Positions 4,688 to 31,504 of a DNA stretch of 64,000 nucleotides are shown piece by piece. Location: contig CAMWTP010000011.1 of assembly GCA_947177165.1 (NCBI GenBank), positions 1 to 64,000 on the forward strand. Reading direction: 5' to 3'. A program made the translations under genes and the position numbers. Every line of letters starts with the position of its first letter. Position 1 is the stretch's first letter. Source of the stretch: an uncultured Lachnospiraceae bacterium (lineage in GTDB: Bacteria > Bacillota > Clostridia > Lachnospirales > Lachnospiraceae). Below the pieces are notes generated by a model. The model was given only the letters and a program-made list of their open reading frames with translations, was not told where the DNA came from and made no database searches.

Positions 4688-4775
4688 TTTCTATTTCCTT
4701 TCCCGATATTGTTAGCTTTTCTCATAAAACCAAACTCTATTCACTGCAAACACACCAGAAATCCCCTTACATGAA

Positions 4776-4802
4776 ATTAGTCCGAAGCTGCTTCGGACTA
4801 AT
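4776..4802 (-). terminator. Stem-loop after the HPr gene
   Basis: A perfect 12-bp inverted repeat (ATTAGTCCGAAG / CTTCGGACTAAT) with a 3-base loop lies just past the HPr stop codon. On the minus strand only a short run of T follows, so it is a weak intrinsic terminator or a 3'-end stabiliser. Confidence 0.6.
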
Positions 4803-4805
4803 CCC

Positions 4806-5069
4806 TTACTCGCCTAAACCGTCTGCTATGACACGAATCATAGTCGACAAGGCTTCGTTCTCATCTGAACCTTCACAAAAAACCTCAATCTCATCGCCGC
4901 ATTTGATGCATGCGCCGAGTACACTGAGCACACTTTTGGCGTTTGCCGTATTTCCGCGGAATGTAAAGGTTATCAGCGAACTGAACTGCATCGCTTCCTT
5001 ACATAAAATTCCTGCCGGACGCAAGTGCAGCCCTGTCGGGTTCTTAATAACGACCTTCTGACTAACCAT
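4806..5069 (-). CDS. HPr-family phosphocarrier protein
   Basis: 87 residues, the normal HPr length, behind GGAGGTG. The phosphorylated His15 is in NPTGLHLRPAG, and Ser46 is present in NAKSVLSVLGA, the site phosphorylated by HPr kinase in Gram-positive bacteria. The residues around Ser46 differ from textbook HPr (usually AKSIMGVMSL), so it could be the main PTS HPr or a Crh/paralogous regulator. It follows glmM with about 55 bases between and ends in a hairpin, so it is probably the last gene of the cdaA-cdaR-glmM transcript. Confidence 0.92.
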   Translation of the reverse strand: MVSQKVVIKNPTGLHLRPAGILCKEAMQFSSLITFTFRGNTANAKSVLSVLGACIKCGDEIEVFCEGSDENEALSTMIRVIADGLGE

Positions 5070-5124
5070 ATATCACACCTCCATTTTACACAACTTGTTA
5101 TGCACAGTCAGGCTGTTGTGTATC

Positions 5125-6474
5125 TCAAAGCATTACGTCCTGTATCAGTTCCGCCAGCTCTCTTGCCTCTCTCTCGATCATCTGCTGATCCTTACCCTCA
5201 ATCATGACACGCACCAGCGGTTCCGTGCCCGATGGTCTGATCAGCACTCTTCCTTCCCCTGCAAATTTCGCACTCACACGCTCGACTGCCTCTGCAATCT
5301 CCGCATACTCCATATAACTGTTCTTTTTGTGATTGGGAACCTTCGCCCCGACAAGCGCCTGCGGAAGCACTGTCATAATCGTAGACAGCTCTGACAGGGA
5401 TTTTCCAGTCTCAACCATCACCTGCAGCAGATGCAAAGCGCTGAGCAGCCCATCACCTGTCGTGTTCTCGTCGAGGAAAATAATGTGCCCCGACTGCTCT
5501 CCCCCGAGATTTGCCCCAATCTCAAGCATCCGCTCCAACACATACCGGTCGCCTACTTTTGTCTGCTCGATATTGATCCCATGCTCCTTTCCCATAAGGA
5601 AGAAGCCGAGATTACTCATCACCGTGGCCACAATCGTATTGTCCTTCAATGTCCCTTTTGATTTCATATGATTGCCGATGATTGCCATAATCACGTCGCC
5701 GTCAACCTGCTTGCCATTTTCATCCACTGCGAGAAGTCTGTCCGCATCGCCGTCAAATGCCAATCCCACATTTGCCTTCTCATACACAACACGCGCCTGA
5801 AGCTCACCCATATGGGTAGAACCGCAGTTCGCATTGATATTGGTCCCGTCAGGATTGTTGTGTATCGCCACGATATTGGCGCCGAGCTCTTTCAGTGTCT
5901 CCACAGATGTATAGAAAGAAGCTCCCTCCGCACAGTCCACCACAATTTTCATGCCATTCAGATCAACCGGAACAGCCTGCACGGAATGATTGATATACTC
6001 CTCCCGCGCATCAGTGCGGTACTTGATCTTCCCCACACTCGGACCTGTCGGGAACTGGACATCCTTCATGCCGCTGCTGATCAGCTCCTCGATCTCATCC
6101 TCCAGAGAATCCGGCAGCTTGAAACCATTTCCATCGAAGAACTTAATTCCGTTAAACTCTACAGGATTGTGCGAGGCTGATATCACAACCCCCGCATCCA
6201 CTCTGTATTTTTTCGTCAGATAGGCAATCGCCGGCGTAGGGATCACACCTACGTACACCACATTCGCTCCGACAGAGCAGGCTCCCGCCATCAGGGCATT
6301 TGCCAGCATATCCCCCGAGATACGCGTATCGCATCCCACCATGATCGTCGGCTTGTGCGCGTTCTCCTTCGACAGGACGTACGCCCCTGCCTGCCCTAAC
6401 TGCATGGCGAGCAGCGGCGTCAGTTCATCATTTGCCACGCCCCGCACTCCGTCTGTTCCAAATAATCTAGCCAT
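5125..6474 (-). CDS. glmM: Phosphoglucosamine mutase
   Basis: 449 residues from the ATG at 6474, which sits ten bases after GGAGG; a TTG nine bases upstream is a poorer choice. It interconverts glucosamine-6-phosphate and glucosamine-1-phosphate for UDP-GlcNAc and peptidoglycan. Seen: N-terminal RLFGTDGVRG, catalytic serine loop VISASHNPVEFNGIKFF, metal loop AFDGDADRLLAVD, and sugar/phosphate loop LIRPSGTEPLVRVM. Domain order and length are standard. In other Firmicutes CdaA binds and inhibits GlmM, and the same gene order is kept here. Confidence 0.98.
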   Translation of the reverse strand: MARLFGTDGVRGVANDELTPLLAMQLGQAGAYVLSKENAHKPTIMVGCDTRISGDMLANALMAGACSVGANVVYVGVIPTPAIAYLTKKYRVDAGVVISASHNPVEFNGIKFFDGNGFKLPDSLEDEIEELISSGMKDVQFPTGPSVGKIKYRTDAREEYINHSVQAVPVDLNGMKIVVDCAEGASFYTSVETLKELGANIVAIHNNPDGTNINANCGSTHMGELQARVVYEKANVGLAFDGDADRLLAVDENGKQVDGDVIMAIIGNHMKSKGTLKDNTIVATVMSNLGFFLMGKEHGINIEQTKVGDRYVLERMLEIGANLGGEQSGHIIFLDENTTGDGLLSALHLLQVMVETGKSLSELSTIMTVLPQALVGAKVPNHKKNSYMEYAEIAEAVERVSAKFAGEGRVLIRPSGTEPLVRVMIEGKDQQMIEREARELAELIQDVML

Positions 6475-13576: not shown

Positions 13577-13598
13577 GACACCTGTTCCTCCATACTAT

Positions 13599-13636
13599 AA
13601 AAGCCGACCTGTTCTTTCAAACAAGGTCGACTTTTT
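13599..13636 (-). terminator. Terminator of the flagellar rod/mbl transcript
   Basis: On the minus strand a long stem (AAGTCGACCT...AGGTCGGCTT with an extension around a short A/T loop) is followed by TTTT, right after the rod-binding gene stop. It separates the flagellar genes from recD2. Confidence 0.75.
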
Positions 13637-14026
13637 TCAATCCTCTGAAAGCTCTTCCGGCTGTACTACCCCAATGCCGTAATTGCGCTTCATCTGCTCA
13701 TACAGGACATTTGCCAGTCCCAGTCCGTCACCGTCCGTCACGTTGTCACACAACTCCTGCACTGCAAAATCCTTAAAATAATCTACCATCTTTGTCGCAT
13801 AACCATCTTCTTCGTCATCCGAGAACACCTTTGTCGTCTCCAGCATCGCATTGAAGACCTGCTCCACAAAATAAGACTCAAACTCCTTGCACGCCTCCTT
13901 GAGTTCTTCCTCGTCCGATGCCGTGCTGCTGCTCGTCAGCTTATTCTGAAGTGTCTCCATCTTGCTGCCCGAAGCCTGACTTGTCATATAGTCCGCATAC
14001 GCAGAACCTACTCCACCGATATTCAT
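13637..14026 (-). CDS. FlgJ-like rod-binding protein (no muramidase domain)
   Basis: 129 residues. The core matches the rod-binding (Rod-binding/FlgJ N-terminal) domain: EELKEACKEFESYFVEQVFNAML, then VDYFKDFAVQELCDNV and GLGLANVLYEQMKRNYG. In E. coli FlgJ this domain caps the growing flagellar rod and is fused to a peptidoglycan hydrolase; here the hydrolase part is absent, as is common in Clostridia. It is the last gene after the two rod proteins, with a ribosome site GGGGGTAGAGAG. Confidence 0.88.
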   Translation of the reverse strand: MNIGGVGSAYADYMTSQASGSKMETLQNKLTSSSTASDEEELKEACKEFESYFVEQVFNAMLETTKVFSDDEEDGYATKMVDYFKDFAVQELCDNVTDGDGLGLANVLYEQMKRNYGIGVVQPEELSED

Positions 14027-14042
14027 ATCTCTCTACCCCCTA

Positions 14043-14864
14043 TCAGCGCTTCAATTGATTTGCCTGCTGAAGCATCTCATCAGAAGTAGTGATAACCTTG
14101 GAATTCATTTCATAAGCTCTCTGCGCCACAATCAGATTGACCATCTCATCAGCGATCTGTACATTGGATCCTTCCAAATATCCCTGAATCATTTTCGTCT
14201 TAGGCAGATTATCATTTTCAGCCTCATTCATCGCCTCACCGCTTGCTGATGTCTCAGAGAACAAGCTGTCCCCCTCTTTGCTCAGACCTGCCGGGTTGTT
14301 GAACTGCCAGAGCCCGATCTGAATCTCAAGACTCTGCGGCACACCGCTCTCATCAGGATAATACAACATCCCATCATTTCGACCGACTGTAATCTTGCTG
14401 GTGACAATATCATCATCCTCAAGAATGATCGGTTCCCCCTCGGAATCCAGCACAGGAAGGCCATCCGATGTCTCCAGCGTAATTCCCTCTGGTCCGATCG
14501 CAAACACAAAATTACCATTTCGTGTGTAATATGTATTTCCGTCCGCGCCCCTGATACCAAAAAAGCCGCGTCCGTTCAGTGCAAAATCTGCCGGTCCCTG
14601 CGTCTCGAGCAGACTCCCGTCCGTAAAAATCGACTTGATCGAAGAATTTCTGACTCCCAGGCCAACCTCAGCGCCAATCGGTTTGTTCTCGCCGTTTGCA
14701 GTTGTGGTTCTCGTCTGTATTGTCTGATATAAAAGTGATTTGAACTCCATAACCTCTGACTTGTAACCTGTCGTGTTTACATTTGCGAGATTATTGGCAA
14801 TATTATCTACGTTTAACTGCTGCGCAATCATACCTGTTGCGCCTGTCCATAATGACCGTACCAT
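14043..14864 (-). CDS. Flagellar hook-basal body protein, FlgG family (FlhP-like)
   Basis: 273 residues. Starts with the rod-protein signature ATGMIAQQLNVDNIANNLANVNTTGYK, carries LNGRGFFGIRG in the middle, and ends with the Flg_bbr C-terminal signature EMVNLIVAQRAYEMNSKVITTSDEM (each given here in parts). These proteins form the distal rod or short hook-like filament parts outside the membrane. It lies after a paralogue and before the rod-binding protein; together with mbl this copies the mbl-flhO-flhP order of Bacillus subtilis, so FlhP is the better label than canonical FlgG. Confidence 0.93.
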   Translation of the reverse strand: MVRSLWTGATGMIAQQLNVDNIANNLANVNTTGYKSEVMEFKSLLYQTIQTRTTTANGENKPIGAEVGLGVRNSSIKSIFTDGSLLETQGPADFALNGRGFFGIRGADGNTYYTRNGNFVFAIGPEGITLETSDGLPVLDSEGEPIILEDDDIVTSKITVGRNDGMLYYPDESGVPQSLEIQIGLWQFNNPAGLSKEGDSLFSETSASGEAMNEAENDNLPKTKMIQGYLEGSNVQIADEMVNLIVAQRAYEMNSKVITTSDEMLQQANQLKR

Positions 14865-18473: not shown

Positions 18474-20258
18474 TTAATTTTTATACATCGCTGCCTGCAT
18501 CTGATAGAGTTCCCTGTAATAATCATTCGTCTGCACCAACGCTTCATGTGTATCAAATCCCAGCACTTTGCCATTTTTCAGAAGCAGGACTTTATCCGCA
18601 TTCCTGACGCTTGCCAGGCGATGCGTGACGAACAGAACCGTTTTATTCTGCGACAGCTCCATAAATTTGTTGAATACCAGATATTCCATCCTCGGATCCA
18701 GCGCTGCCGTCGGTTCATCCAATATTAAAATATCTGCATCCATATAAAATGCGCGCGAAAGCGCAAGCTTCTGCCACTGCCCGCCGGACAGTTCCCGCGC
18801 GCCGTCAAACTGTTTCCCAAGCATCTGGTCCAATGACAGGTCAGCGGTTGTCTCATCCGTAAATCCGCTCTGACTCAACGCCTCCATAACTACTGCATCC
18901 GCCTTCTGTGTATTCGCTTCTGCCAATATCACATTCTCACGCAGCGTCAGATCAAATCTGGAAAAATCCTGGAAAACTGCACAAAACTGCTCTCTGTATT
19001 GATCTATATCAAATTCCTCAAAGCGGACTCCATCGAATGTCACTGTTCCGCTGTCCGGATGATACAATCTCAGGATCAGCTTTACCAGAGTCGACTTCCC
19101 CGCACCATTCTCCCCGACGATGGCAATCTTCTCTCCTTTTTTCACCGCGAAGGAAACGTGGTCCAAGACCTTTTTTTCGCCCTGCGGATACCGGAAGGAA
19201 AGATTATCGATCCGTATCCTGCTGAAATCTGTCCACTCTTTTGTCCCGTCAAATCCCGCGGTCGTTTCAATCGCCAGATACGAAAAAAGGTTGGACATGT
19301 ACAACAAGGTGTCATAGAGCATACTCGAATCCTCGACAAACCTGCTGATTCCCTGAATCGTGTAGACAATCGCGGAAGTATAGATCAGTATCGTGCCGAT
19401 ATCCAGCCGCTGGCAGGACACAGCATACGTGATGTGGCAGAACCCAAGCACACTGACTGCACCTGTGATCATCAGAAAGACGGACGCGAAAACACATTGT
19501 CTGACTCTGCCTTTCTGCACTTTGGAATGAATCCTCAGGTATGTGCTGCTATATTTATTCTGAAAAAAGCCATACAGTCCATACAACCTGACTTCTTTGA
19601 TATGCTCTGCTGACAGGAGCGTTTCCGAATAATAAGAGAGTTTTCTGGAATCCTCGCTGTTGGACACCAGCGTCTCAAACGCCTGCTGCTGTATCCTGTA
19701 GGACAAGATTCCCTGCGGTATCAGTATGATAAAAAGAACGATCGCAATGACTGCACGGAAGGAGCAGAGCAGCACAAACATGAAAACCAGTGATATCGCG
19801 TTCATCATCAGGCTTGTTCCAAACACGAGCAAATTGACAGGCCGCCAGCCTGATTCGGCGCTCAGCAGACGGATCTTATCGTAAAATTCACTGTCCTCAT
19901 AACAGTCGATTGTCTGAATCTGCTCAGACTGTTTCATAATGCTGACATTCAGCTGGTATGTAAGCCGGTCAGTCAGCTGCCCCTGCACAAACGTAACCAT
20001 CGGCGACGCCAGATTGCCTGCGATAAACGCAATTCCCCACACAGCCAGCAGGAATGCCAGCTGTCCGGAATGCCCTGCCTGAACCTGACTGACGATTCTG
20101 TTTGTAAGATACAGTGTCACTGTGGGAAGCAATGCCTGCACCGGAATCAGCAGCAGCAGTGCAGACATCAGTTTTTCAGATGTCTTCCAGACAAACCGGA
20201 AACTTTTGATATATAATGTGATGTAACTGCAGATCGATTTTATATGTTTCATTCTCAT
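18474..20258 (-). CDS. ABC exporter (permease-ATPase fusion) of the RiPP cluster
   Basis: 594 residues (the ATG six bases later, at 20252, has better spacing to AGGAG and may be the true start). Six N-terminal membrane helices (for example LLLIPVQALLPTVTLYL; VIAIVLFIILIPQGIL) and a complete C-terminal ATPase: Walker A VGENGAGKSTLVKL, Q-loop CAVFQDFSRF, signature ELSGGQWQKLALSRA, Walker B ILILDEPTAALD, switch VTHRLASV. It has no N-terminal C39 peptidase, so it would export mature peptide without trimming a double-glycine leader. It is the last gene of the radical SAM cluster and likely gives export or self-protection. Confidence 0.9.
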   Translation of the reverse strand: MRMKHIKSICSYITLYIKSFRFVWKTSEKLMSALLLLIPVQALLPTVTLYLTNRIVSQVQAGHSGQLAFLLAVWGIAFIAGNLASPMVTFVQGQLTDRLTYQLNVSIMKQSEQIQTIDCYEDSEFYDKIRLLSAESGWRPVNLLVFGTSLMMNAISLVFMFVLLCSFRAVIAIVLFIILIPQGILSYRIQQQAFETLVSNSEDSRKLSYYSETLLSAEHIKEVRLYGLYGFFQNKYSSTYLRIHSKVQKGRVRQCVFASVFLMITGAVSVLGFCHITYAVSCQRLDIGTILIYTSAIVYTIQGISRFVEDSSMLYDTLLYMSNLFSYLAIETTAGFDGTKEWTDFSRIRIDNLSFRYPQGEKKVLDHVSFAVKKGEKIAIVGENGAGKSTLVKLILRLYHPDSGTVTFDGVRFEEFDIDQYREQFCAVFQDFSRFDLTLRENVILAEANTQKADAVVMEALSQSGFTDETTADLSLDQMLGKQFDGARELSGGQWQKLALSRAFYMDADILILDEPTAALDPRMEYLVFNKFMELSQNKTVLFVTHRLASVRNADKVLLLKNGKVLGFDTHEALVQTNDYYRELYQMQAAMYKN

Positions 20259-20262
20259 GCAC

Positions 20263-20460
20263 TCCTTTATGATACTTCAGAAACTGCCACATACTGCGCG
20301 ACAGTTCCTTATCTGTTTCAAAAACATTTGTATTTTTGGAAAATGCACTCAAAATTCCCACGCAAAAAAGAGGCCGGAAACTGAGGGCACCGTCCACTTC
20401 TGGCAACACAAAAACGCCGGGCATCATGAATGCCACATCTGACGCGTTTTCTGTTTCCAT
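20263..20460 (-). CDS. Doubtful small ORF between the MFS and ABC genes
   Basis: An open frame beginning METENASDVAFMMPGVFVLP runs from 20460 and enters the ABC gene in another frame. There is only a weak GAGG 12 bases upstream. It could be a leader peptide, a decayed gene or chance; I see no domain. Listed because it lies inside the peptide cluster and the gap between the MFS and ABC genes is otherwise unexplained. Confidence 0.2.
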
Positions 20461-20547
20461 TGCAGACTATACCCTCATCTTCGTACCTCTCTTTCCATCA
20501 ATGGTTTCAGTATAATACATTAAACCGCATCTGTCTATCCCCAAAAT

Positions 20548-21786
20548 CTATTTCTGCCTTTCCGTGACCGCACACGGTCGCTTGTCCGGAAGAAAGATCG
20601 CTGCGACTCCTGCTGATATAAGGCACCCTGCTGCCCCAATACCGAATACAAGCTGCGGCGAACATTCCCAAACCCAGCCGATCACCACAGGCATAACGAT
20701 CCCAATAGCGCTGCTGAAAGACTCCACAATCCCAAGAATGATCGTGCCATTGTGGTCGTCGAACACATCATAAAAATAGGCAAACGACACAGATGCAAAA
20801 ATGTCCTTCACCATGGAAAGAATGATTCCAATGATAAAAACGGTCACATTATGAGACAATAGAAAGATCATTGCCGGAAACACGTCAAATCCAATGTCAA
20901 AGACATAGAACCACTTCCTGCCTTTTAGATCACCCAAATGGCTGACAAACAGTGCCCCAATTGCATTGAATAAAGTCATGAACGAAAAAATAGACATAAC
21001 ATGCGACACCGAGATTCCTATTGTCAGGGCATATAATGGCAGGTATCCCATCGCCACCGCATATACATTGGAAAAGAGTTTCACTGTCATATATGTCCAA
21101 AATTTCTTATCCTTGGCAATTTTCCGAAAGGACTTCCATGATGTCTTCGTCTCCTCTTTCTCCTCGTCGTCGCTGTCTGTCGTTTTCCCATCCTGTCCTG
21201 TTCTGGTTCTGCATTCTGCACGAACCAGCAGAAGCATGATGAGTGGCAGGATATATAAGACACCACCTATCCTATACATAGTACTGACATCAAATACCTT
21301 CGCGATCTGCCCTCCGAGGAACAAACCAAGCGAAATCCCCCCATACAGAAATAGATCACGCACAGCAAAGTATTTCCCCCTATGCTCGTCTGCAACCTCA
21401 TAATTAATGTCATTCCCCAGTGAATAATTAAAACTTGTCCGTACACAGGCAAGCAGCACAAGTACCCCGATCAACAGACCAGCCTGATTCACATCCCCAG
21501 CCATACAACCTGTGGCAACCGCTGCGAGCATCGTAATAACTGCCACACGATAAGCGCTAGATTTTACAGATACAATACTTACCAACCCAGGAATGACAAC
21601 ACAGCAGGCATTGACCAGTGCGAGCACATAACCATAATAGCGCGCTGGCTGCCCTTTCTCCTCCATCAGCACAGGCAACATATCCTGGACTGGACCGTCC
21701 ACCATGAAAAAAAGCATATATAAAAGATATATCTTTACATACTTCCTTCCAAACATGCCTTTGTATGATTTAAGCAATATTTTCAT
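20548..21786 (-). CDS. MFS-family transporter of the RiPP cluster
   Basis: 412 residues, about twelve hydrophobic helices (VKIYLLYMLFFMVDGPVQDM; VLALVNACCVVIPGLVSIVS; ISVSHVMSIFSFMTLFNAIGAL; IGIVMPVVIGWVW) with the MFS loop motif SHLGDLKGRKWF between helices 8 and 9 and a charged cytoplasmic loop after helix 6 (DGKTTDSDDEEKEETK). The ATG overlaps the stop of the PqqD-like gene (ATGA), a sign of coupled translation. It may export the mature peptide, protect the producer, or import a precursor; substrate unknown. Finding both an MFS and an ABC exporter in one small cluster is unusual. Confidence 0.82.
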   Translation of the reverse strand: MKILLKSYKGMFGRKYVKIYLLYMLFFMVDGPVQDMLPVLMEEKGQPARYYGYVLALVNACCVVIPGLVSIVSVKSSAYRVAVITMLAAVATGCMAGDVNQAGLLIGVLVLLACVRTSFNYSLGNDINYEVADEHRGKYFAVRDLFLYGGISLGLFLGGQIAKVFDVSTMYRIGGVLYILPLIMLLLVRAECRTRTGQDGKTTDSDDEEKEETKTSWKSFRKIAKDKKFWTYMTVKLFSNVYAVAMGYLPLYALTIGISVSHVMSIFSFMTLFNAIGALFVSHLGDLKGRKWFYVFDIGFDVFPAMIFLLSHNVTVFIIGIILSMVKDIFASVSFAYFYDVFDDHNGTIILGIVESFSSAIGIVMPVVIGWVWECSPQLVFGIGAAGCLISAGVAAIFLPDKRPCAVTERQK

Positions 21787-22040
21787 GATTTGACAACTCC
21801 CAATTTCTGTAACGATTCAATAAATTGACATACCTTGTTCTCCAAATCATCAATTTGATGTGTTTCTGCTATTATATTTATTATATCATGAATATTAGTA
21901 TTATCTTTAATATTCTTCAATATAATATATTCCAAATAATTTCCTTCATATACTTTGTAATTATTTAAGTCAAATATAAATAGTTTTCCTCCCTTAATAT
22001 TGCTCTCATATCGAAATAAAACATTTTTGCATATTTTCAT
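21783..22040 (-). CDS. PqqD-like RiPP recognition element protein
   Basis: 85 residues from the ATG at 22040, AT-rich. The body fits the PqqD/RRE fold: short strands at KNVLFRYESNIKGGKLFIFD, the conserved region NNYKVYEGNYLEYIILKNIKDN, then helices with DIINIIAETHQI and QFIESLQKLGVVKS, whose last helix ends in the typical small hydrophobic L-x-x-x-G-V. Stand-alone PqqD proteins bind the leader of a precursor peptide and present it to a radical SAM enzyme. The two cluster radical SAM genes lie upstream beyond a dead insertion sequence. A longer frame extends to 22217 but its extra 59 codons look non-coding. Confidence 0.72.
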   Translation of the reverse strand: MKICKNVLFRYESNIKGGKLFIFDLNNYKVYEGNYLEYIILKNIKDNTNIHDIINIIAETHQIDDLENKVCQFIESLQKLGVVKS

Positions 22041-22344
22041 ATTTATAATTCGCCTTTCTGCGAAAGACACTGATGGAGTTATGAAACCCACTCTGGACTT
22101 TCGCTTTTCTAATTTTCCTAATATATTATCTTTGTAAGAATGACACACTACAGAACACGTGAAGGTGAGTGGCGAAACTGTATGGCAGCGCCCCGCTATT
22201 TTATATGTATCGTTCATCCGTTAAGGCATCAATGAATGGCGCATTCCCGTAGCCCGTAAACTTATCTCTTCCAAAGTCGACTCAATTTTGCTGGATGGCC
22301 AATCTCTGTCAGCCTACGCCTATAAATCTCAGGAGGTTATTATT
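22041..22344. other. Gap between pqqD-like gene and the IS remnant
   Basis: About 300 bases with no supportable gene. It probably holds the start region for the pqqD-MFS-ABC transcript and the left flank of the IS110 copy. I see no clear promoter or terminator. Confidence 0.35.
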
Positions 22345-23510
22345 TTGGATTTTAAAATCTTTCGTAAAAACTATTGTGGTCTTGATGTCCACAAAACATA
22401 GATCTATGCCTGTATCGGGATCACTGACACAAACGGCAGAGCCGAGTATAAGCAGATCCGTTTCTCATCCTTTTCAAAAGGACTTAAGGGACTGTGAATG
22501 GCTTGCAAAATACCATTGTTCTGAAATTTGTATATAATTTACCAGCAAGTACTATATCCCTGTATTTAACATCCTTGAAAAAGCTGACATTTCTGTTGTT
22601 CTTACCAATCCCAAATATACCAAACCACAAAAGGGAAATAAGACCGACCACAAGGATGCTAAATGGATCTGTGACCTGTTTTGTGCGATATGGTCAAACT
22701 TTCTTTTATTCCGTCTTCTGATATCGGTCATCTAAGGAATCTGATATGGTACTGGTTCAAACTCATCTGCATGATCACTGGTGAGAAGGACCGTGCCCAG
22801 AATTGTCTTCCCGTATTGAATCACAAGCTTGACAATGTTTTCAGCGACGTTTTTGTGAAGTCATCCCGTTCCAATACTGAACAGCCGCTTGCCTATCCTA
22901 GGAATTTTTTTGATGTAACGCCTTTTGTTAACAGATGGTATAAACACCGGTTGAAGAAATCCAGGCCGCTGTTAACGGAGCCATTTCTCCCGAACAGGCT
23001 GTCAAGCTCCGGCAGTGCCTTAACCACATAGACGTATTAGAAAATCACATAAATGAAACAGCACAGGAACCCCCTTCGGTTTAGTGACAGGTACCCGGAT
23101 ATCCTTCGGCTCATTCGCACCGTTCTCGGATTCGGCAGGAATCCAATGACTACAGTCCAGATCCTCTCCGAAATCAGTGGTGATATGTCTGTCTTCCCCA
23201 CAGCAAAACAGCTCATTTCATGGACTTGATGCTGCCCCACAATGACCAGAATAACCAGAAGATCAAATCGACTCGAATTTCTCATGCTGGTACTCATATT
23301 AAGCCATTACTGGTACAGATTGCAAACAGTTTATTAGCACATACTCTCAGATTTAAAGTCTTATACACCAGATGGCTTCCTTGAATCGCGCTCTGTAGAG
23401 AAATCAAAAGTATTGACTATGGCACAGGCTTTTAGTTTATTGAAACAGCGGGGATATATTATCTTCAATGCCACCTCTGTTCTGAATTAGGTGTCATGTC
23501 TATATTCAAT
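22345..23510 (+). mobile_element. Degenerate IS110-family transposase plus a second transposase fragment
   Basis: Plus-strand remnant. Behind AGGAGG, a frame from the TTG at 22345 starts NYCGLDVHKT, the IS110 DEDD motif, then hits TAG and TGA stops; later frames give LTNPKYTKPQKGNKTDHKDA, EISGDMSVFPTAKQLISW and THIKPLLVQIANSLLAH, the C-terminal Transposase_20 part. These fragments are in different frames, so the gene is dead. From about 23340 the homology changes to DLKSYTPDGFLESRSVEKSK and a short tail ending near 23490, probably a piece of another element. It splits the radical SAM genes from the pqqD-like gene. Confidence 0.8.
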
Positions 23511-23596
23511 TTTTTGAAGCCACCACAAGGTGGCTTGTTCGTGATGCAATTAACGTTCTCCCTAACCACTACTTCTCAGTTTCAAACTTAGCCTCC

Positions 23597-24751
23597 TCAT
23601 ATACTACAATTTCCATCTGCATAATTGAATTTCTTATATTTAAAGAAAGAAGATGCTGGACACCCACCTAAACATTTTTCTTTTTCACTACACCTTACGC
23701 ACTTTTCAGATTTCGGTTTTCTAACCCTCACACAATTCCAAATCTGCTTTTTCCACAATTCTTTCAATTTTTCTTCATAAATATTTCCCACAAAAAAAAT
23801 TTTATTTTCTAAATAAGAACATGGATATACCTCCCCATGTACTGATATTTCACAAGACGTTACTCCCGCAGGACACACATGTTTTCCGGTTGGAAAATAC
23901 ACATCAGGATACTGAGCCCTAAACCATATTGCAAATGGATATACTAATGACACCGGATCTCCTGTTATGTCTATATTTCTCCCATTATCTTTTATATCTC
24001 TTAATATTTTTACAAATTCCTTAATTATTTTGGTATCATTACACTTTTCAACCTCTATACAGTCATTGTCAAACATCGGCATAAATCGAATTGAATTAAC
24101 CTCTTTTTTGATACATAACTGATATACTTCCAACATATCTTTATATGTTATTTCATTTATTACCATAGCAACCTGAGTCTTAACTATATGACTTTTTAGC
24201 AATTCTAACTTTTCTTTTATATCTGTGAACTTTGCCCCCCTGCGTATATTTTCATATGTGCTACCAACTCCATCTATGCTAATTTGAATATAATCAAATT
24301 CGTCTACAAGCATTCTATCCAATTCATATATTAACTCATCTGTCAAAAACAAACCATTAGTTAATATAGCAATAAATATATTCTTACTTTTTATATATTC
24401 AATTATTTCTAAGATTTCTGGATGCAGCAGAGGCTCGCCTCCTGTCAAAAATATTTGAAACACTCCATTGAATGCCAATTCATCAATTATTTCTTTCCAA
24501 TTTACAAAAAATCCAGCACTTTCCAGGTTTAATAAATTCTTCCTAGAACAGTGTTTACATTTTAAATTACATATATCTGTCAAATTTATTCCCACTTGCA
24601 ATGGTGTTTCCGGTAATATATTCTCCGTTTCCAGCAATTCATTATAAAAATCAAATACGAACCCTAACCTAGAATTGCTGCAAAAATCATGTGACGTTTT
24701 GTAATGTGCAAATAATTTAGCCTCTTCTTCGGTCAAACAATCATATATCAT
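23597..24751 (-). CDS. Radical SAM/SPASM peptide-modifying enzyme (full SPASM)
   Basis: 384 residues from the ATG at 24751, which overlaps the upstream stop as ATGA. The radical SAM CX3CX2C is CNLKCKHC, followed by FLTGGEPLLHPE and SIDGVGSTYENIRRGA. The C-terminal SPASM domain is complete: CPAGVTSC, GEVYPCSYLENK, then CVRCSEKEKCLGGC and a final Cys in YADGNC, enough for two auxiliary iron-sulfur clusters. Such enzymes build thioether, C-C or C-O links in ribosomal peptides. It is the second gene after the precursor. The exact reaction is unknown. AT-rich compared with genes to either side of the cluster. Confidence 0.9.
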   Translation of the reverse strand: MIYDCLTEEEAKLFAHYKTSHDFCSNSRLGFVFDFYNELLETENILPETPLQVGINLTDICNLKCKHCSRKNLLNLESAGFFVNWKEIIDELAFNGVFQIFLTGGEPLLHPEILEIIEYIKSKNIFIAILTNGLFLTDELIYELDRMLVDEFDYIQISIDGVGSTYENIRRGAKFTDIKEKLELLKSHIVKTQVAMVINEITYKDMLEVYQLCIKKEVNSIRFMPMFDNDCIEVEKCNDTKIIKEFVKILRDIKDNGRNIDITGDPVSLVYPFAIWFRAQYPDVYFPTGKHVCPAGVTSCEISVHGEVYPCSYLENKIFFVGNIYEEKLKELWKKQIWNCVRVRKPKSEKCVRCSEKEKCLGGCPASSFFKYKKFNYADGNCSI

Positions 24752-25941
24752 ACTGAACTCTTTGCTATTATGCATGATGCATCCGGCATATTTATTGTCC
24801 CGAAAGTATCAAAAGCATATTTAGCATTTCCCCCTTTACATATATTAAAAATTTTACACTCATTACAAATGCAATTTGTCAAATCTCTTTTTTGTCTAAA
24901 TTCTTCCCATTTCTTCCCATCTCTCCATACATTCATCACCCCTTTCTCATAAACATTTCCTGCCGACGCCTCCTTTTCCCATTCTGGTCCTGGTAATGCA
25001 TCTCCTTCGGCATCAATTTGCATAAATGCATTGGTTTCATTTAAAGAAATTATCCTTGATTCTTTTGTATCAAAAATGCTTTTGTCAAGTTCATCAAAAT
25101 ACTTGTTCATTAAAAATTGATACCTTTTTCCAACCTGAATCCTTAATTTTGTTTTCATAGAACTTTCTAATTGTTTACAAACAGCTATTTGTCTAATGTA
25201 TTCCAACTCATCTAGTTTATTTTCAAATCTCTTCCCTTTCCTAAGAGGAAATACTGGCGCTGGTGCGAATGTATCAACTCCTAAAGAATTTGCCAATTTA
25301 TATGTTTCGATTAAATATTGTTGATTTATTGGTGTCGCTGTGAATACATTTCTCACTTTTATCCCACTTTGTTTTAATAATCGTATAGCATTAACAGCTT
25401 TTTCAAATATTTTCACACTTCTTTGGGCATCATGAACTTCACTATTTGGACCATCTAAACTAACCTGCACAACATCTGTATTTAAATTCAATATTTTTTT
25501 TAATTTAAATACCACATTTTCGTTAATCAATGAACCATTTGTCATTATATCGATCAAAATATTATTGTCTTTCAATTTCTGCAGTATTTCAAAGATATCT
25601 TTCCTCATGAACGGCTCTCCTCCAGAGACAGAAACCATTAAGACATTATTCTCACAAATCTCATCTGCCACTTTCATGATTTCCTCATGACTATGTTCGA
25701 ATCCTAATTTTGCCCAACAATGTTGACAATTTGCATTGCATTTTCCTGTTATTTTCCACAGAATTTTAAGTGGTGCATCTAAAGTTATGTTTGCTGTTTC
25801 TGATTCTCCAAACAAACTTTGCATAATCAATGTATGACATTTTCTATCCTCTTCAGGATTATTAGCTGATTTGGTAATATGTTCAAAACAATACTCTACT
25901 AATTCTTTCTCCTGACATTTTAGTAAATCTATAGTTTCCAT
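24748..25941 (-). CDS. Radical SAM peptide-modifying enzyme with degenerate SPASM
   Basis: 397 residues; N-terminal extension of about 70 residues before the radical SAM core, CNANCQHC, then VSVSGGEPFMRKD and SLDGPNSEVHDAQR. The C-terminal end resembles SPASM but several ligands are gone: the usual GxxxPC reads GDALPGPEW and the usual GGC reads CKGGNAK, leaving CICNEC, C in FNIC and a final DASC. It may hold one auxiliary cluster or none, so it probably performs a different step from its neighbour. First enzyme gene after the precursor; a gap of about 215 bases separates it from the peptide gene. Confidence 0.88.
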   Translation of the reverse strand: METIDLLKCQEKELVEYCFEHITKSANNPEEDRKCHTLIMQSLFGESETANITLDAPLKILWKITGKCNANCQHCWAKLGFEHSHEEIMKVADEICENNVLMVSVSGGEPFMRKDIFEILQKLKDNNILIDIMTNGSLINENVVFKLKKILNLNTDVVQVSLDGPNSEVHDAQRSVKIFEKAVNAIRLLKQSGIKVRNVFTATPINQQYLIETYKLANSLGVDTFAPAPVFPLRKGKRFENKLDELEYIRQIAVCKQLESSMKTKLRIQVGKRYQFLMNKYFDELDKSIFDTKESRIISLNETNAFMQIDAEGDALPGPEWEKEASAGNVYEKGVMNVWRDGKKWEEFRQKRDLTNCICNECKIFNICKGGNAKYAFDTFGTINMPDASCIIAKSSV

Positions 25942-26156
25942 TAATTTAATCCTCTTATTTTCCCCCTCTCCTTCCGCTTCTTTATCCCCGATAATTTTGT
26001 ATTCAATTTACTACTGATAAACGATTAGTCTCAACTCTATCAAAGCTTATCGAAACATAATTATAAAAATCAGGTAATCAGGAAGAAGAGGGACAATTCC
26101 TTGTTGTACTAAATTTAGATTTTCAAGAAAAGAAAAATTTCTTAGACTCTAATGAA

Positions 26157-26285
26157 TCATCCTGCATGAGATGGTGTACTATCTTTTGCAGCTGAAACAC
26201 GTGAGCATACAATGTCCTGATCTGAGTACACTTCTTTAACTTCAAATTCATAAGATTTTTCTTCATTTTCGATAGATTCCAACAT
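26157..26285 (-). CDS. Candidate RiPP precursor peptide (42 residues)
   Basis: A short ORF with an excellent AAGGAGG eight bases before ATG. It begins MLESIENEEKSYEFEVKEVY (strongly acidic, leader-like) and ends CSRVSAAKDSTPSHAG (one Cys, many Ser/Thr/Ala, small C-terminus, core-like). Two radical SAM enzymes and a PqqD-like protein follow in the same direction, so this is the natural substrate. The single Cys could take part in a thioether to a downstream residue. No match to a known RiPP class is recognised by eye. It lies alone between the palindrome and the first enzyme gene, as precursor genes usually do. Confidence 0.75.
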   Translation of the reverse strand: MLESIENEEKSYEFEVKEVYSDQDIVCSRVSAAKDSTPSHAG

Positions 26286-26348
26286 GTAATATTCCTCCTT
26301 CATATTATTTGTTCAAGCTTGACACTTTTAATGTACCATTTTACGACA

Positions 26349-26405
26349 AATAACACCATGTCAAAACTAGAAAAAGTATTTTTCCAGTTTTGACATGGTG
26401 TTATT
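26349..26405. promoter_or_regulatory. 57-bp near-perfect palindrome, probable shared operator with divergent -35 boxes
   Basis: Left arm AATAACACCATGTCAAAACT and right arm AGTTTTGACATGGTGTTATT are exact reverse complements; inside them GAAAAA and TTTTTC also pair around GTA with one mismatch. Each arm holds TTGACA pointing outward, toward the precursor gene on the left and the exported peptide gene on the right. Sitting between divergent genes, it is better explained as an operator than as a terminator. No clean -10 lies at 17 bases on either side, which fits activator dependence. The likely binders are the nearby HTH-TPR proteins. Confidence 0.65.
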
Positions 26406-26457
26406 GCATATTACATGTTAAAATAAATCATTAATTATTCGTAGGAGGTTCTTTTTA

Positions 26458-26628
26458 ATGAAAAATATCTGTAATTTATTTAAAAAAATATCTATTCTCG
26501 TTCTGGTACTCATGGTCTTCTTTGTCAGTCCACAATACAGCCGTTGCGAAGAACCAGAACTTTCATCAATTATTACAATCCATTCTCTTACATTTCCTCC
26601 CCAAAATGATATTTCAGGTTTTCATTAA
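26458..26628 (+). CDS. Small exported peptide, candidate quorum-sensing pro-peptide
   Basis: 56 residues behind GTAGGAGG. Begins MKNICNLFKKISILVLVLMV, a textbook basic-hydrophobic signal peptide, then FFVSPQYSRCEE and a short polar/hydrophobic tail ending SLTFPPQNDISGFH. This is the layout of PapR/SHP/Phr-type pro-signals: export, trimming and re-import by an oligopeptide permease. It runs opposite to the RRNPP-like regulator and overlaps its last 41 bases, and it is divergent from the RiPP precursor. It could instead be an immunity or small secreted protein, but layout favours a signal. Confidence 0.68.
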   Translation: MKNICNLFKKISILVLVLMVFFVSPQYSRCEEPELSSIITIHSLTFPPQNDISGFH

Positions 26629-27544
26629 TGAGTTTTTGATTATACTTGTCTTTTCTTGCGGCAGCAATATAGTATGCCTGCCGCATCATTCTGTTTGATT
26701 CTTCCAGCTCCTGTTTCCGTACTTTGGAATCCTCCATCATTTTAGCCAGTTTTAACTTATTCCCCGCTACTTGCATCAAAAGTTCCACCAGTGCATGTGC
26801 GTATCCACGACTGACAGCCATCTCTAAACCTTCCCTGGCCTTTTCTAATGCTTCCTCGTATCGACCCAACTTATTAAGCGGTCCTGACAAATTGGCTAAA
26901 TTGATAAGTTTCAATTCCTCTGCACTTTTCACATCCATATATCCCGCATCCAGACTCCTTATGATCATCTCGTATACCCAAATAGTTTTATCCAGCTCAC
27001 GCATATCATAATATGTATTTCCAATTTCCATTAGGATCAGTATCTCCTGCTCCCTGTACGGATATACGATATCGCGCTTGTCGCCCCACAGATAACATGT
27101 ATAGTCTGGAATCGTCATCTCCATTGCCTCGCCAAGACGCCGCATATGCTCCTGTGCCTCAATCCTTCCCATCGCATAATCCAGCAGGGATTCTATCCGT
27201 TTCAGATACTGTCTGTCCACCACGAAATCCGATATCTTATCTCTGATCCGCACCAGATAGCGCTCTGCTGCATGATAGTCCCGTTTTGCCAAAGCATCCT
27301 CCAACAAAGAATACTCGTCCAGCAGGGACATATCCTTTCCCATACAGACTGCACAGTTGTCGTGCACCCCGCGCCCCATCTTTTCCATAAGCTGCCTGTA
27401 CGTCTCCCGCTTGATCTTGTGTCTGTTGTTTTCGATGCGCGACAACGTTTCCACAGAGCAGATTCCATCACTCAGCTCCTCCTGTGTCATTCCAGCTGCA
27501 TTCCGTGTCAGCCGGATCACATCTCCAGCCCTGTAATCTGCCAT
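26588..27544 (-). CDS. RRNPP-type HTH-TPR transcriptional regulator (A)
   Basis: 318 residues behind GGGGAGGAATTG. N-terminal Cro/C1 helix-turn-helix (VIRLTRNAAGMTQEELSDGI, with SVETLSRIENNRHKIKRET) followed by TPR-like helices for the rest of the protein (YLVRIRDKISDFVVDRQYL; ILMEIGNTYYDMRELDKTI; LGRYEEALEKAREGLEMAVS). This is the architecture of Rgg, PlcR and PrgX regulators that bind re-imported signal peptides in the TPR pocket. Its 3' end is overlapped by the convergent exported peptide gene. Probably controls the palindromic promoter region of the peptide cluster. Confidence 0.82.
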   Translation of the reverse strand: MADYRAGDVIRLTRNAAGMTQEELSDGICSVETLSRIENNRHKIKRETYRQLMEKMGRGVHDNCAVCMGKDMSLLDEYSLLEDALAKRDYHAAERYLVRIRDKISDFVVDRQYLKRIESLLDYAMGRIEAQEHMRRLGEAMEMTIPDYTCYLWGDKRDIVYPYREQEILILMEIGNTYYDMRELDKTIWVYEMIIRSLDAGYMDVKSAEELKLINLANLSGPLNKLGRYEEALEKAREGLEMAVSRGYAHALVELLMQVAGNKLKLAKMMEDSKVRKQELEESNRMMRQAYYIAAARKDKYNQKLINENLKYHFGEEM

Positions 27545-28572
27545 CTCAATTCCTCCCCACAGAATCGCCTGATCGCCTCCATCTGCTGCATATCGCCAAA
27601 GACTTCACAGATGCTGTATGCCATCAGACACTCCCGCTGAATTTCCCTCCTGACATCACGACCTCCAAAACCCCCTTGGTTCTCCTCCTTCAATGCAGCC
27701 GCGCCATATCGGCGCATCAGTGCCTGCGCCTTAAGAAAATGCAGACGATCCAGACCTCCAATATCCCTTCCCTGTGCGACAAAGTCAATTCCCTGATCAA
27801 TATAAGCGAGCTCTTTATCCGGCTCCTGCAGCCTTTGTTCCAATTCAATCAGTTCCATGAGGATCAGGTATCCCATCTTCTGTTTCCTGCGTTCTGTATC
27901 ATAGCACTCTATATGGCGAAACAAATCCAACAATATTTCTTCCGCCCAGGCGTCGTTATTATATTTTCCATAATGAACCAGTCTCAGTATGAGTCCGATC
28001 TCCGTTGATGTATACAACTGTTTCCCCCCACTGCTTCCAGGCACAAATGCCGGCTTTGTCAGGCGCAGTGCCCGAAGCGCATTTTCGCATAGCTTCGCCT
28101 GTTCATCCCGCAGTCCGCGCTGCGCGCTTTCACCATTTTCCAGCTGATCCTCTGCCATCATGATTTCATAATAACTGCAGAACTGTTCGTGCAGCCTATG
28201 TGCACGATTCTTCATGGCACGGTATGCAGTCAGATCTTCCCGCACCCTGTCATACTCCTTGTGCTGCATGTGTTTCCTTATGGATTCCCTCGCACACCAC
28301 AGCGCGTAATCTTCTTCATTTAAGAGCTGCTCAAACTGGTCGACCATCTTGCCAATCCGCTCCAACAGCTGACTGCTCGTCAGGGAATCCACACATCTTT
28401 TCCCCTTCTCCATCCGCAACAGTTTACTGGTGGAACAGATCCCATCACACACCTGTTCCAGTGTCAGGCCATATTTATCTCTATAATAAGACAACACAAC
28501 GCCTGCCGAGTTAATCTCCATAATTTCGCTGTTATCTTCCGCAAAAACACCTTTATCTCCTGTATCCTGCAT
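27517..28572 (-). CDS. RRNPP-type HTH-TPR transcriptional regulator (B)
   Basis: 351 residues from the ATG at 28572, which follows GAGGGAG; a GTG-started longer form begins 57 bases earlier without a ribosome site. It has an N-terminal HTH (YYRDKYGLTLEQVCDGICST, SKLLRMEKGKRCVD) and a helical TPR-like body (LLNEEDYALWCARESIRKHM; GYLILMELIELEQRLQEPDK). It overlaps regulator A by 28 bases, and they share HTH phrases such as DGICS-T/V, so this is a tandem pair from duplication. uvrA ends 61 bases upstream without a terminator, so some expression may come from uvrBA read-through. Confidence 0.78.
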   Translation of the reverse strand: MQDTGDKGVFAEDNSEIMEINSAGVVLSYYRDKYGLTLEQVCDGICSTSKLLRMEKGKRCVDSLTSSQLLERIGKMVDQFEQLLNEEDYALWCARESIRKHMQHKEYDRVREDLTAYRAMKNRAHRLHEQFCSYYEIMMAEDQLENGESAQRGLRDEQAKLCENALRALRLTKPAFVPGSSGGKQLYTSTEIGLILRLVHYGKYNNDAWAEEILLDLFRHIECYDTERRKQKMGYLILMELIELEQRLQEPDKELAYIDQGIDFVAQGRDIGGLDRLHFLKAQALMRRYGAAALKEENQGGFGGRDVRREIQRECLMAYSICEVFGDMQQMEAIRRFCGEELRWQITGLEM

Positions 28573-28633
28573 GCGAACTCCCTCATCCAAAAAAGTTCCC
28601 TTTATATCATTCTTTGTGTATATTTCCACTTAT

Positions 28634-31504
28634 TTATTTCAGATTTTTCGCCCTCTCCAGCATTCTCTTCACATAGATCCCCGTGTAGGAGTGCGGACAC
28701 CTGGCAATATGCTCCGGCGTGCCCTCGGCGATCACCGTGCCGCCGCCGTCTCCGCCCTCCGGTCCGATGTCAATAATATAGTCTGCCGTCTTGATCACAT
28801 CAAGATTGTGTTCAATGACAATCACCGTGTTGCCGCCCTCCGCAAGACGCTGCAGAATCTCAACAAGCTTGTGTACATCCGCAAAATGAAGCCCTGTTGT
28901 CGGCTCATCCAGAATATAGATTGTCTTCCCTGTGCTTCTGCGGCTCAACTCCGTCGCAAGCTTGATGCGCTGCGCTTCGCCGCCCGAGAGTGTCGTCGAA
29001 GGCTGTCCCAGCTTGATGTAGGAGAGTCCCACATCGTACAAAGTCTCAATCTTCCTTTTTATGGAAGGAACCGGGTCAAAAAACTTCACTGCCTCCTCGA
29101 CCGTCATATCCAGCACATCATAGATACTCTTTCCTTTATATTTTACGTCCAGTGTCTCTCTATTGTAACGCTTTCCCTGACAGACCTCGCAGGGCACATA
29201 CACATCCGGCAGAAAATGCATCTCAATCTTGATGATGCCATCGCCGCCGCACGCCTCGCATCGTCCGCCCTTCACGTTAAAGCTAAAGCGCCCCTTACTG
29301 TATCCCTTTGCCTTGGCATCAACAGTTGAGGCAAACAGATCCCTGATCTGGTCAAACACCCCTGTGTAAGTCGCCGGATTGGACCTTGGTGTCCTGCCGA
29401 TTGGCGACTGGTCAATGGCAATCACCTTGTCAAGCTGTTCTACCCCTTCTATTTTCTTGAATTTGCCCGGTATGGTGCGCGCCCTGTTCAATTTTTTTGC
29501 CAGATACTTGTACAGAATCTCATTTACCAGAGAGGACTTTCCAGAACCCGACACGCCTGTCACACAGGTAAACACACCGAGCGGAAACTTCACATCGATA
29601 TTTTTGAGGTTGTTCTCCGCTGCCCCCTTTACCGTAAGCCAACCAGTTGGCTTTCTCCTGCTCTCTGGAACTGGAATCTGTATTTTTCCGCTCAGATACT
29701 GTCCTGTAATGGACTCCGGCTCTTGCATGATCTCCCGGGCTGTTCCCTGCGCGATCACTTCTCCTCCGTGCTCCCCGGCACCAGGGCCAATATCAATCAC
29801 ATGATCTGCCGCCAGCATGGTATCCTCGTCATGTTCCACAACGATAAGTGTATTTCCAAGTCCCTGCAGATTCCGCAAAGCCGACAACAGCTTGTCATTA
29901 TCCCTCTGATGCAATCCGATACTCGGCTCATCCAAAATATAGCATACGCCGACAAGCCCGGAGCCAATCTGTGTTGCCAGTCTGATGCGCTGTGCCTCCC
30001 CTCCCGACAGGGACGCTGTTCCCCTTGACAAACACAGATATTCCAGACCGACACTTGCAAGAAACCCTACTCGCGCGCGGATCTCCTTCAAGATACGCTT
30101 GCCGATCAACTGCTGTTGTTTCGTCAACTCCATCGTGTCCAGAAAACTGTAAAGATTTGTGATTGACATGGAGGTAATCTCGTAAATATTTTTGTCACAC
30201 ACTGTCACCGCCAATGAACTTTTTTTCAGACGCCTTCCGCCACACTCCTTGCAGGGTGTAATGCGCATAAACGTCTCATACTCCTGCTTGATACTTTCAG
30301 AAGCCGTCTCCCTATATCTACGCTCCACATTCTTGAGCAGTCCCTCAAAGGCCACAGGATAAATACCCTCTCCGCGCTGTCCCTTGTAATGTACGGCCAC
30401 TTCCTTCCCTTTTGTTCCGTTAACAAGCACATCCTTTATCTCATCTGATAACGCCTCAAACGGTGTGTCAAGGGAAAAGTTGTACTCCTTACTTAAAGCC
30501 TGCAGAATTGCATTCGTAAAGCTTCCTTTGTCCGCACATGACTGCCATCCCATAACAGTAATTGCACCTTGATTGATGCTGAGGCTTCTGTCAGGTATGA
30601 TCAGATCAATATCGAATTCCATCTTATAACCGAGCCCGAAACACTCTGGACAGGCGCCAAATGGATTGTTAAAGGAAAAACTTCTCGGCTCCACCTCATC
30701 AATGCTGATATTGCAGTCAGGACACGCAAAGCTGTCGGAGAAGTTCATCATCCTGCCGTCAATCACATCAACCATCAGCAGTCCGTCGGAGAGTGCCATG
30801 ACATTCTCGATGGAATCCGTCAGCCTGCGCTCAATTCCCTCTTTTACAGCGATTCTGTCCACAATGATCTCAATATTGTGCTTGATATTTTTTTCTAGTT
30901 TGATCTCCTCGGACAGGTCGTACAGATTCCCATCAATACGGACACGCACATATCCGCTCTTTTTAGCACGGTCAAGCACCTTGACGTGCTCTCCCTTCCT
31001 GCCGCGCACCACCGGCGCCAGCAGCTGCAGTTTCGTGCCCTGCGGCAGCTCCATGATCTGGTCTACGATCTGATCAACTGTCTGACGCCTGATCTCCCTG
31101 CCGCAGTTTGGACAGTGTGGTATACCGATGCGCGCATACAGCAGCCTGAAATAGTCATAGATTTCCGTCACAGTGCCGACTGTTGATCGTGGATTTCTGT
31201 TCGTGGACTTCTGGTCGATCGATATTGCCGGCGACAAACCGTCTATTCGCTCCACATTCGGCTTTTCCATCTGCCCCAAAAACTGTCTGGCGTAGGAGGA
31301 CAGTGACTCCATATACCGCCTCTGTCCCTCTGCATAGATTGTGTCAAATGCCAGGGAGGATTTGCCGGAACCGGACAATCCCGTCAGCACCACAAACTTA
31401 TTTCTGGGAATATCCAGATCAATGTTTTTCAGGTTGTGCTCATTTGCACCGCGAATCTTGATGACCTCTCCCTTGGGAAGCATTTTCAGTTGTTCTCTGT
31501 CCAT
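28634..31504 (-). CDS. uvrA: UvrABC excinuclease subunit A
   Basis: 956 residues from the ATG at 31504; a GTG 21 bases upstream is an alternative. Two ABC ATPase halves: Walker [15 protein letters not shown] near residue 35 and [14 protein letters not shown] in the second half, signature [16 protein letters not shown] and [16 protein letters not shown], Walker [14 protein letters not shown] and [13 protein letters not shown]. The zinc fingers are CPDCNI...CPECFG and CEACGG...CEVCQG. It scans DNA for bulky lesions with UvrB. It follows uvrB by about 60 bases. Confidence 0.99.

Follow-up and report, generated by a model that had tools for sequence, protein, structure and literature searches.

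We analysed a 64,000-nucleotide stretch of DNA from an uncultured Lachnospiraceae bacterium (positions 1 to 64,000 of contig CAMWTP010000011.1, assembly GCA_947177165.1; hereafter the window) and characterised a locus in which two receptor genes of the RRNPP type (regA and regB), a small open reading frame (ORF) with a signal-peptide-like start and a 57-bp palindrome adjoin genes for a ribosomally synthesised and post-translationally modified peptide (RiPP). It is probable that this locus is a peptide quorum-sensing switch with a two-sided promoter, from which its pheromone gene is driven on one side and an HGH/bicyclostreptin-like RiPP operon on the other. What we observe directly is the order and homology of the genes, a conserved small ORF, a module that recurs in other genomes, tandem and fused receptors that are colinear, and payloads that differ behind the same switch. 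Read along the minus strand from 28629 to 18474, the order is regA, regB, the palindrome, the precursor gene, two radical SAM genes (rSAM1 and rSAM2), an IS110 remnant, a RiPP recognition element (RRE) gene, and genes for a major facilitator superfamily (MFS) and an ATP-binding cassette (ABC) exporter. An earlier reading of the same DNA (the original prediction) had proposed that a peptide switch of the RRNPP type, with a logic like that of Rgg/SHP in streptococci, stands next to a radical SAM RiPP set. Our analysis supports this proposal, and the coordinates and features given there hold; the IS110 copy had been overlooked.

RegB (26588-27544, minus strand) has the helix-turn-helix (HTH) and tetratricopeptide repeat (TPR) architecture of an RRNPP peptide receptor. 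Its best match in both sequence and predicted fold is PlcR of the Bacillus PlcR-PapR system, and we regard it as PlcR-like. Its paralogue RegA (27517-28629, minus strand) matches the N-terminal half of fused double receptors. The two tandem HTH-TPR regulators of the original prediction are both present; the HTH Pfam match of RegA is below the cut-off, and its kinship rests on homology comparisons. At E 0.1, neither protein matches TIGR01716 (the Rgg C-terminal domain), which is present in the regulator of the Streptococcus intermedius locus L007, or RNPP_C (PF18768), which is above cut-off in two of three fused relatives tested. Two homologues of RegB with 72-77% identity (P0140 and P0157) carry the label 'Lachnospiraceae bacterium', and RegB occurs in five of 38 congeneric genomes, including its own; the fourth of the other loci (L067) ends at a contig edge.

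Receptor profiles matched 44 of 397 family genomes at 1e-25. Of the receptors examined in regions L074-L133, 48 are single proteins of at least 550 aa, each with at least two HTH-TPR profile spans; the N-terminal half scores best as RegA in 45 of them and the C-terminal half as RegB in 47. As the fused halves are colinear with RegA and RegB, the tandem pair in the window appears to be a split, or unfused, form of the double receptor. Among the 46 fused receptors with sufficient 3' room, 26 have a small ORF, 18 have a dyad 100-450 nt further on and ten have both; 36 have at least one of the two when dyads are counted from 20 nt. The genome from which the window derives encodes six further fused receptors (L097-L102), which are possibly parallel private signalling channels; the same filters detect a small ORF at three of them and a dyad at three. 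They lie on contigs C32, C4, C79, C175, C100 and C8.

The predicted pro-pheromone is encoded by a 56-aa ORF (26458-26628, plus strand) that overlaps the 3' end of regB convergently. The ORF has a Shine-Dalgarno (SD) sequence and a signal-peptide-like start, which confirms the divergent, signal-peptide-bearing 56-residue ORF originally reported; its secretion, and with it the adjacent secreted pro-peptide gene expected of an RRNPP system, is predicted from our own hydropathy rule, not SignalP. Homologues with 44-54% identity were found in three congeneric genomes, these being all three of the other congeneric loci with an intact regB 3' side, and pN/pS outside the regB overlap is 0.37-0.63 (six pairwise comparisons). 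The small ORF is therefore not a chance feature. The four homologues share [SF]PxQ[NK][DN]I in their C-terminal part.

We searched for convergent ORFs with an SD sequence and a signal-peptide-like start at the 3' ends of 132 genes, taken from the window, from four congeneric loci and from seven loci that belong to six genomes outside the genus. Eight genes had such an ORF, and all eight were regB genes. The same thresholds were applied unchanged to a later set, in which the small ORF was present at 19 of 37 receptor 3' ends versus none of 77 other genes; regions L074-L096 gave 9 of 24 versus none of 18. The later receptors were found with hidden Markov models built from the tandem loci; the later set comprises 37 regions, 35 from the family-search list (open frame of ~560 aa or more) and two matches in the window's own genome, and L108 and L132, with less than 150 bases of 3' room, were left out of the count. 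A looser run additionally admits L057 (as L071) and L077. In 14 of the 28 cases from these two sets, the overlap between the stop codons of receptor and small ORF has an identical offset. We regard the small ORF as a real gene belonging to the receptors.

The 57-bp palindrome between the two peptide genes (26349-26405, on neither strand), also confirmed from the original prediction, is the predicted shared operator. It has a dyad score of 22, compared with a maximum of 10 in 200 dinucleotide shuffles. Each arm contains TTGACA, and on both sides an extended -10-like box lies 23 nt from it: TGTTAAAAT (26416-26424, plus strand) towards the signal-peptide ORF, with comparable sites by eye in the congeneric loci L064-L066, and TGGTACATT (26330-26338, minus strand) towards the precursor, with comparable sites by eye in L064 and L066. 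From this sequence arrangement, an activator-dependent two-sided promoter is plausible. In L064, an A to C change in one arm of the dyad is matched by the other arm. We rejected the idea that the palindrome is a dispersed repeat, since its only match in its own genome is itself. We likewise rejected a known RNA element, as nothing in Rfam reached the gathering threshold across 21000-29000.

Only seven dyads scoring at least 13 were found in 180,554 bases, six of which are at receptor modules (the window, L053, L054, L055, L057 and L064); the seventh, at window position 4789, is a perfect hairpin with 13-bp arms. Near fused receptors, dyads scoring at least 12 occur at 1.18 per kb (19 in 16.1 kb, 100-450 nt past the 3' end) versus 0.059 per kb outside that zone (17 in 289 kb), a 20-fold enrichment. 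By eye, an outer ATGAC/GTCAT-like and an inner GGAAA/TTTCC-like element are common to many of the dyads and missing from others, a pattern that would follow from separate sites for the individual paralogues.

The module of receptor, small ORF and palindrome recurs across the family, with either a tandem pair or a fused double receptor, and what lies behind it differs. The window is homologous to the congeneric genome G702 (L064) from uvrA through the palindrome, ending at 26302; there the switch is followed by an ABC-2 permease gene and then the contig end. Homology to G679 (L066) ends at 26325, with the exception of the MFS gene, and there the same switch stands with ABC and MFS genes (11601-14503) and no rSAM match. 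In G701 (L065 119-220, minus strand), a 33-aa Cys-containing ORF with an SD sequence, ending RCNNC, occupies the place of the window precursor before the contig ends, and is possibly a different peptide payload. In L053, from another genus, a gene for an EAL-domain protein (cyclic di-GMP phosphodiesterase family; 4702-5574) starts ~110 bp from a perfect dyad. As rSAM1 was found in one of 38 congeneric and one of 299 family genomes, each time the window's own, and other payloads occur elsewhere, the switch is common and the RiPP cassette is among its rare payloads. The original prediction had held that regulators pairing with other genes elsewhere would count against it; such pairing does occur, yet it fits a modular switch better than a refutation. 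It had also suggested a test for joint recurrence of the rSAM genes, RRE gene, palindrome and receptors: each half does recur elsewhere, and the full combination is found in one genome.

The RiPP half begins with a 42-aa precursor (26157-26285, minus strand, extendable to 26303) that has a strong SD (AAGGAGG) and the C-terminus TPSHAG, confirming the leader/core-like peptide originally noted. It is followed by two radical SAM/SPASM genes, rSAM1 (24748-25941, minus strand) and rSAM2 (23597-24751, minus strand), which share the ATGA overlap described earlier provided that rSAM2 starts at 24751 (a longer ORF starts at 24775). A stand-alone, PqqD-like RRE protein (85 aa; 21783-22040, minus strand), HghD-like, completes the set; its PF05402 match is weak (19.2 bits, below the cut-off of 23.4), and its assignment as the recognition protein of the original prediction is backed by a Caloranaerobacter gene with 49% identity to it over 79 residues, whose own PF05402 match (23.8 bits) is above the cut-off. 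Together, precursor, rSAM enzymes and RRE match the streptococcal HGH (bicyclostreptin) set, which consists of HghA, two rSAM enzymes (HghB and HghC) and HghD as the RRE protein (PMC11002830). The earlier statement that no named family has this exact set is thus not supported, and we rejected an unnamed RiPP family since the HGH gene architecture was found. The peptides had also been called unrelated to those of streptococci. For the precursor this does not stand, because the gene set matches the HGH/bicyclostreptin one; the regulators and the signal peptide do differ.

A profile built from rSAM1 relatives and run against GTDB genomes detected 32 loci, of which many are only distant rSAM genes. 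We read six of the 32 closely, from Caloranaerobacter azorensis (L002), Marinitoga lauensis (L003), S. intermedius (L007), Clostridium sardiniense (L008), S. orisratti (L009) and Parvimonas parva (L022), and compared twelve by tblastn. All six share the order rSAM1-rSAM2-RRE. The first rSAM gene is interrupted in L007 (10184-10186) and L009 (9690-10260), and the second in L003 (10980-12258). A short ORF lies upstream of the rSAM genes in the window and five of the six loci; L009 has no intact one. These precursors end in TPSHAG (window), TKSHAG (L002), SKSHGH (L003 and L008) or SKAHGH (L022 and L007), so that [ST]x[SA]H[GA][HG] is common to all, His(-3) is invariant in the core, and T-x-S-H-A-G in the window and Caloranaerobacter stands against S-x-S/A-H-G-H in the others. 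A leader motif, [FVL][KE][KE]V[DYN], fits all six precursor ORFs (VKEVY in the window). Both motifs were derived from the six sequences that they describe, and a loose precursor-motif scan of L002-L040 also matched many unrelated ORFs. With leader and core motifs common to the window and five loci, the precursor is not a chance ORF. The S. intermedius peptide is an 'HGH motif RaS-RiPP peptide' in NCBI naming.

With regard to HGH membership, the window precursor ends in His-Ala-Gly, not the His-Gly-His of the family. The locus does have two tandem rSAM/SPASM maturases, which fall into separate clades (100/99), each with its positional counterparts from the SKSHGH/SKAHGH loci, in a tree of 32 rows; rSAM1 belongs to the first-rSAM clade. 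By gene order, rSAM1 and rSAM2 would be the counterparts of HghB and HghC. The stand-alone RRE is 49%, 37% and 34% identical to those of L002, L003 and L008. Among the six precursors, the HGH model NF050042 (rSAM_RiPP_HGH) matches P0121 only, leaving unmatched the Marinitoga, Clostridium, Parvimonas and Caloranaerobacter precursors and the cluster representative P0129, one residue from the window's. Because it fails to match the window precursor, we regard the RiPP half as a divergent Thr...His-Ala-Gly variant of the HGH radical SAM RiPPs (RaS-RiPPs) rather than a member.

At class level, the only other match of the rSAM1 profile (two of 391 genomes, own included) is L044 (G405), which the tree shows to be a different rSAM locus and which was not counted. 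By eye it has two rSAM genes, a PqqD-like-looking gene, a short ORF ending VACIPCMSLE and an MFS-like neighbour. No plasmid relatives of rSAM1 were found at E 1e-30, viral contigs gave seven distant loci (E 4e-7 to 2e-5, followed by a motif scan), and in the PDB the profile matched general rSAM enzymes only, SkfB being the best. The Caloranaerobacter cluster contains a third rSAM gene and a second RRE-sized small protein gene, with no Pfam match, before its MFS gene (L002 12642-14047).

Both exporters reported earlier are supported by Pfam matches. The MFS gene (20548-21786, minus strand), which has an ATGA overlap with the RRE gene, encodes a protein 39% identical to the MFS protein of the Caloranaerobacter cluster and 78% identical to that of congener L066. 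The ABC gene (18474-20258, minus strand) starts ~290 bp beyond the MFS stop codon, so its membership of the cluster is uncertain; none of its Pfam matches is to a peptidase domain. A degenerate IS110-family transposase (about 22288-23590 by eye, plus strand), with a PF01548 match at 22496-22681 that contains one stop codon, separates rSAM2 from the RRE gene. Two other PF01548 matches are present in the same genome, one of them above cut-off and free of stops.

Signalling, DNA binding, the direction of control, chemistry, export and activity are inferred. The 56-aa peptide would be exported by Sec and trimmed, and its C-terminal part, around [SF]PxQ[NK][DN]I, would re-enter the cell and bind to the TPR domains of RegA and RegB. 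The two receptors would act as a pair on the 57-bp dyad, recruiting polymerase to the two outward-facing extended -10 promoters. The RRE protein would then present the 42-aa precursor to the two rSAM enzymes. In the HGH system, HghC forms an ether from Ser O to C-beta of His(i+3), after which HghB forms an N to C-alpha bond at His-Gly (PMC11002830), and bicyclostreptin A is SWSKSHGH minus 4.0313 Da (PMC12445099). At the corresponding positions the window core has Thr at i, His at i+3 and Ala at i+4. If HGH chemistry is kept, Thr would supply the ether: homology to HghC and HghB predicts a link between the O of Thr(-6) and C-beta of His(-3). A second bond, at His-Ala or, if shifted, Ala-Gly, would join a backbone N to C-alpha. 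The predicted product is a bicyclic peptide 4 Da lighter, exported by the MFS protein. The mass change would be -2.016 Da with the HghC-like enzyme and -4.031 Da with both; for DSTPSHAG, a guess at the mature form modelled on bicyclostreptin A, [M+H]+ would fall from 771.327 to 767.296.

Several observations weigh against this interpretation. The link between switch and RiPP is seen once, because rSAM1 was found in its own genome only among the 38 congeneric and 299 family genomes. NF050042 does not match the 48-aa precursor ORF of the window at E 0.1. By the filter, 18 of the 37 later-set receptors have no small ORF. Of the 15 receptors of single length in L074-L133, two have a small ORF and none has a dyad 100-450 nt past the 3' end, although L083 carries one at 78 nt; the counted dyads may include ordinary terminators. 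The L066 dyad is imperfect (score 7) and L065 has none; in the first twelve modules, L056 and L058 have neither small ORF nor strong dyad, L059 has no dyad and L067 is truncated by its contig. The 23-nt spacing between TTGACA and the -10-like boxes is non-standard, and a standard promoter scan lists neither box. Finally, the IS110 remnant may cut off transcription of the RRE and exporter genes.

This last point bears on the possibility that the RiPP operon is decaying, the insertion having uncoupled RRE and exporter so that the switch serves its own pheromone and no mature peptide is made. Besides the degenerate transposase inside the operon, such decay would be in line with damage in related clusters: the first rSAM gene of S. 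intermedius has an in-frame TAG, S. orisratti has no intact first rSAM ORF or precursor, and the second rSAM of Marinitoga is split over two ORFs. However, all ORFs of the set in the window are open, the ATGA overlap of RRE and MFS genes is preserved, and the 90% cluster of the precursor spans 170 contigs, so we rate decay as rather unlikely. Somewhat easier to entertain, if still doubtful, is that the two rSAM enzymes install other bonds than those of bicyclostreptins, such as a thioether to the precursor's Cys or a single crosslink, in view of the substitutions that the window core (TPSHAG instead of SKSHGH) has for Ser, Gly and the last His. Both this precursor and that of Caloranaerobacter have a Cys near the core, but the two are not aligned, the remaining four precursors are Cys-free, and His(-3) is retained throughout.

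The switch itself is open to other explanations. The small ORF could encode an effector, immunity or antisense-regulatory product while the regulators sense another ligand: pN/pS is 1.02-1.59 in its regB-overlapping part (in the four of six pairs that were computable). The predicted PlcR/Rgg/ComR-like fold of the receptor argues the other way, and we find this improbable. It is very improbable, in our view, that the RiPP operon was merely inserted beside an unrelated switch that does not control it, with the palindrome serving the small ORF only or acting as a terminator. Such an insertion would be consistent with the absence of rSAM1 from all 37 other congeneric genomes and with the terminator-like score of the palindrome in one scan. 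The palindrome, however, lies upstream of both genes rather than at a gene end, combines TTGACA with a -10-like box at equal 23-nt spacing on either side, and has counterparts of the same kind preceding the small ORF in other genera. We regard this as a real quorum-switch-plus-RiPP locus that is likely to be functional in design.

The RiPP half resembles the HGH bicyclostreptins of S. thermophilus and S. agalactiae in its short, C-terminally modified precursor, two rSAM enzymes and stand-alone RRE. It differs in its TPSHAG core (not SKSHGH), its MFS exporter, its non-streptococcal host, and its PlcR-like pair in place of Rgg/SHP. The streptococcal HGH sets are controlled by an RRNPP-type regulator (PMC11002830, PMC12445099, PMC13361665), and in S. 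intermedius an ABC exporter and an Rgg gene adjoin the set. Receptors of the RegA/RegB type are absent from the six close-read HGH loci (E 1e-3, ORFs of at least 180 aa, with only 2.1 kb upstream covered in L008), except for weak matches to the Rgg genes of L007 and L009. As in Rgg/SHP RaS-RiPP loci, a peptide pheromone would control a radical SAM RiPP, but RegA and RegB have no TIGR01716 match. RegB is closest to PlcR, as described above. PlcR-PapR has a single receptor and a peptide gene that is not convergent, unlike the convergent peptide gene and doubled receptors of the window. In layout, which alone was compared, the convergent small peptide gene and adjacent RiPP genes are similar to pneumococcal TprA/PhrA and TprA2/PhrA2, where a PlcR-family regulator is accompanied by an opposite-strand secreted-peptide gene and adjacent lanthipeptide genes (PMC5436883). 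Those systems have one receptor and a lanthipeptide payload, and TprA and TprA2 repress; in the present module the receptor unit is doubled, either in tandem or by fusion, and is accompanied by a dyad of 40-60 bp.

The double-receptor branch of RRNPP signalling is apparently undescribed. 'RRNPP' and 'Lachnospiraceae' were not found together in any open-library paper searched, and no description of a double-receptor class in Lachnospiraceae was found in the titles and abstract openings of the matches listed. The RRNPP_detector paper, whose main text does not contain 'Lachnospir', reports seven RRNPP-linked gene clusters in Clostridiaceae and one each in Peptoniphilaceae and Tissierellaceae; 'Lachnospir' is also absent from a structural-phylogeny paper. 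RRNPP_detector uses a receptor length window of 250-500 aa, which excludes the fused receptors, and one survey defines RaS-RiPP as PF04055 plus TIGR01716 (PMC13289728). With these limits, current detection rules would miss the module.

Lachnospiraceae are major gut anaerobes, and we lean towards the view that they harbour an undescribed class of peptide quorum sensing. In this class, two PlcR-like units, in tandem or fused into ~600-700 aa, would read one pheromone encoded head-on at the receptor stop codon and would bind jointly to a dyad of 40-60 bp. They would control swappable payload operons, here a Thr...His-Ala-Gly branch of the bicyclostreptin type, and a single genome would have several such private channels (this one has a tandem pair and six fused receptors). 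The module supplies a testable receptor, pheromone and operator together with concrete candidates for synthetic peptides, and the dyad offers a route to the regulon of the switch. The RiPP half would extend bicyclostreptin-type cores to new residues beyond the streptococci.

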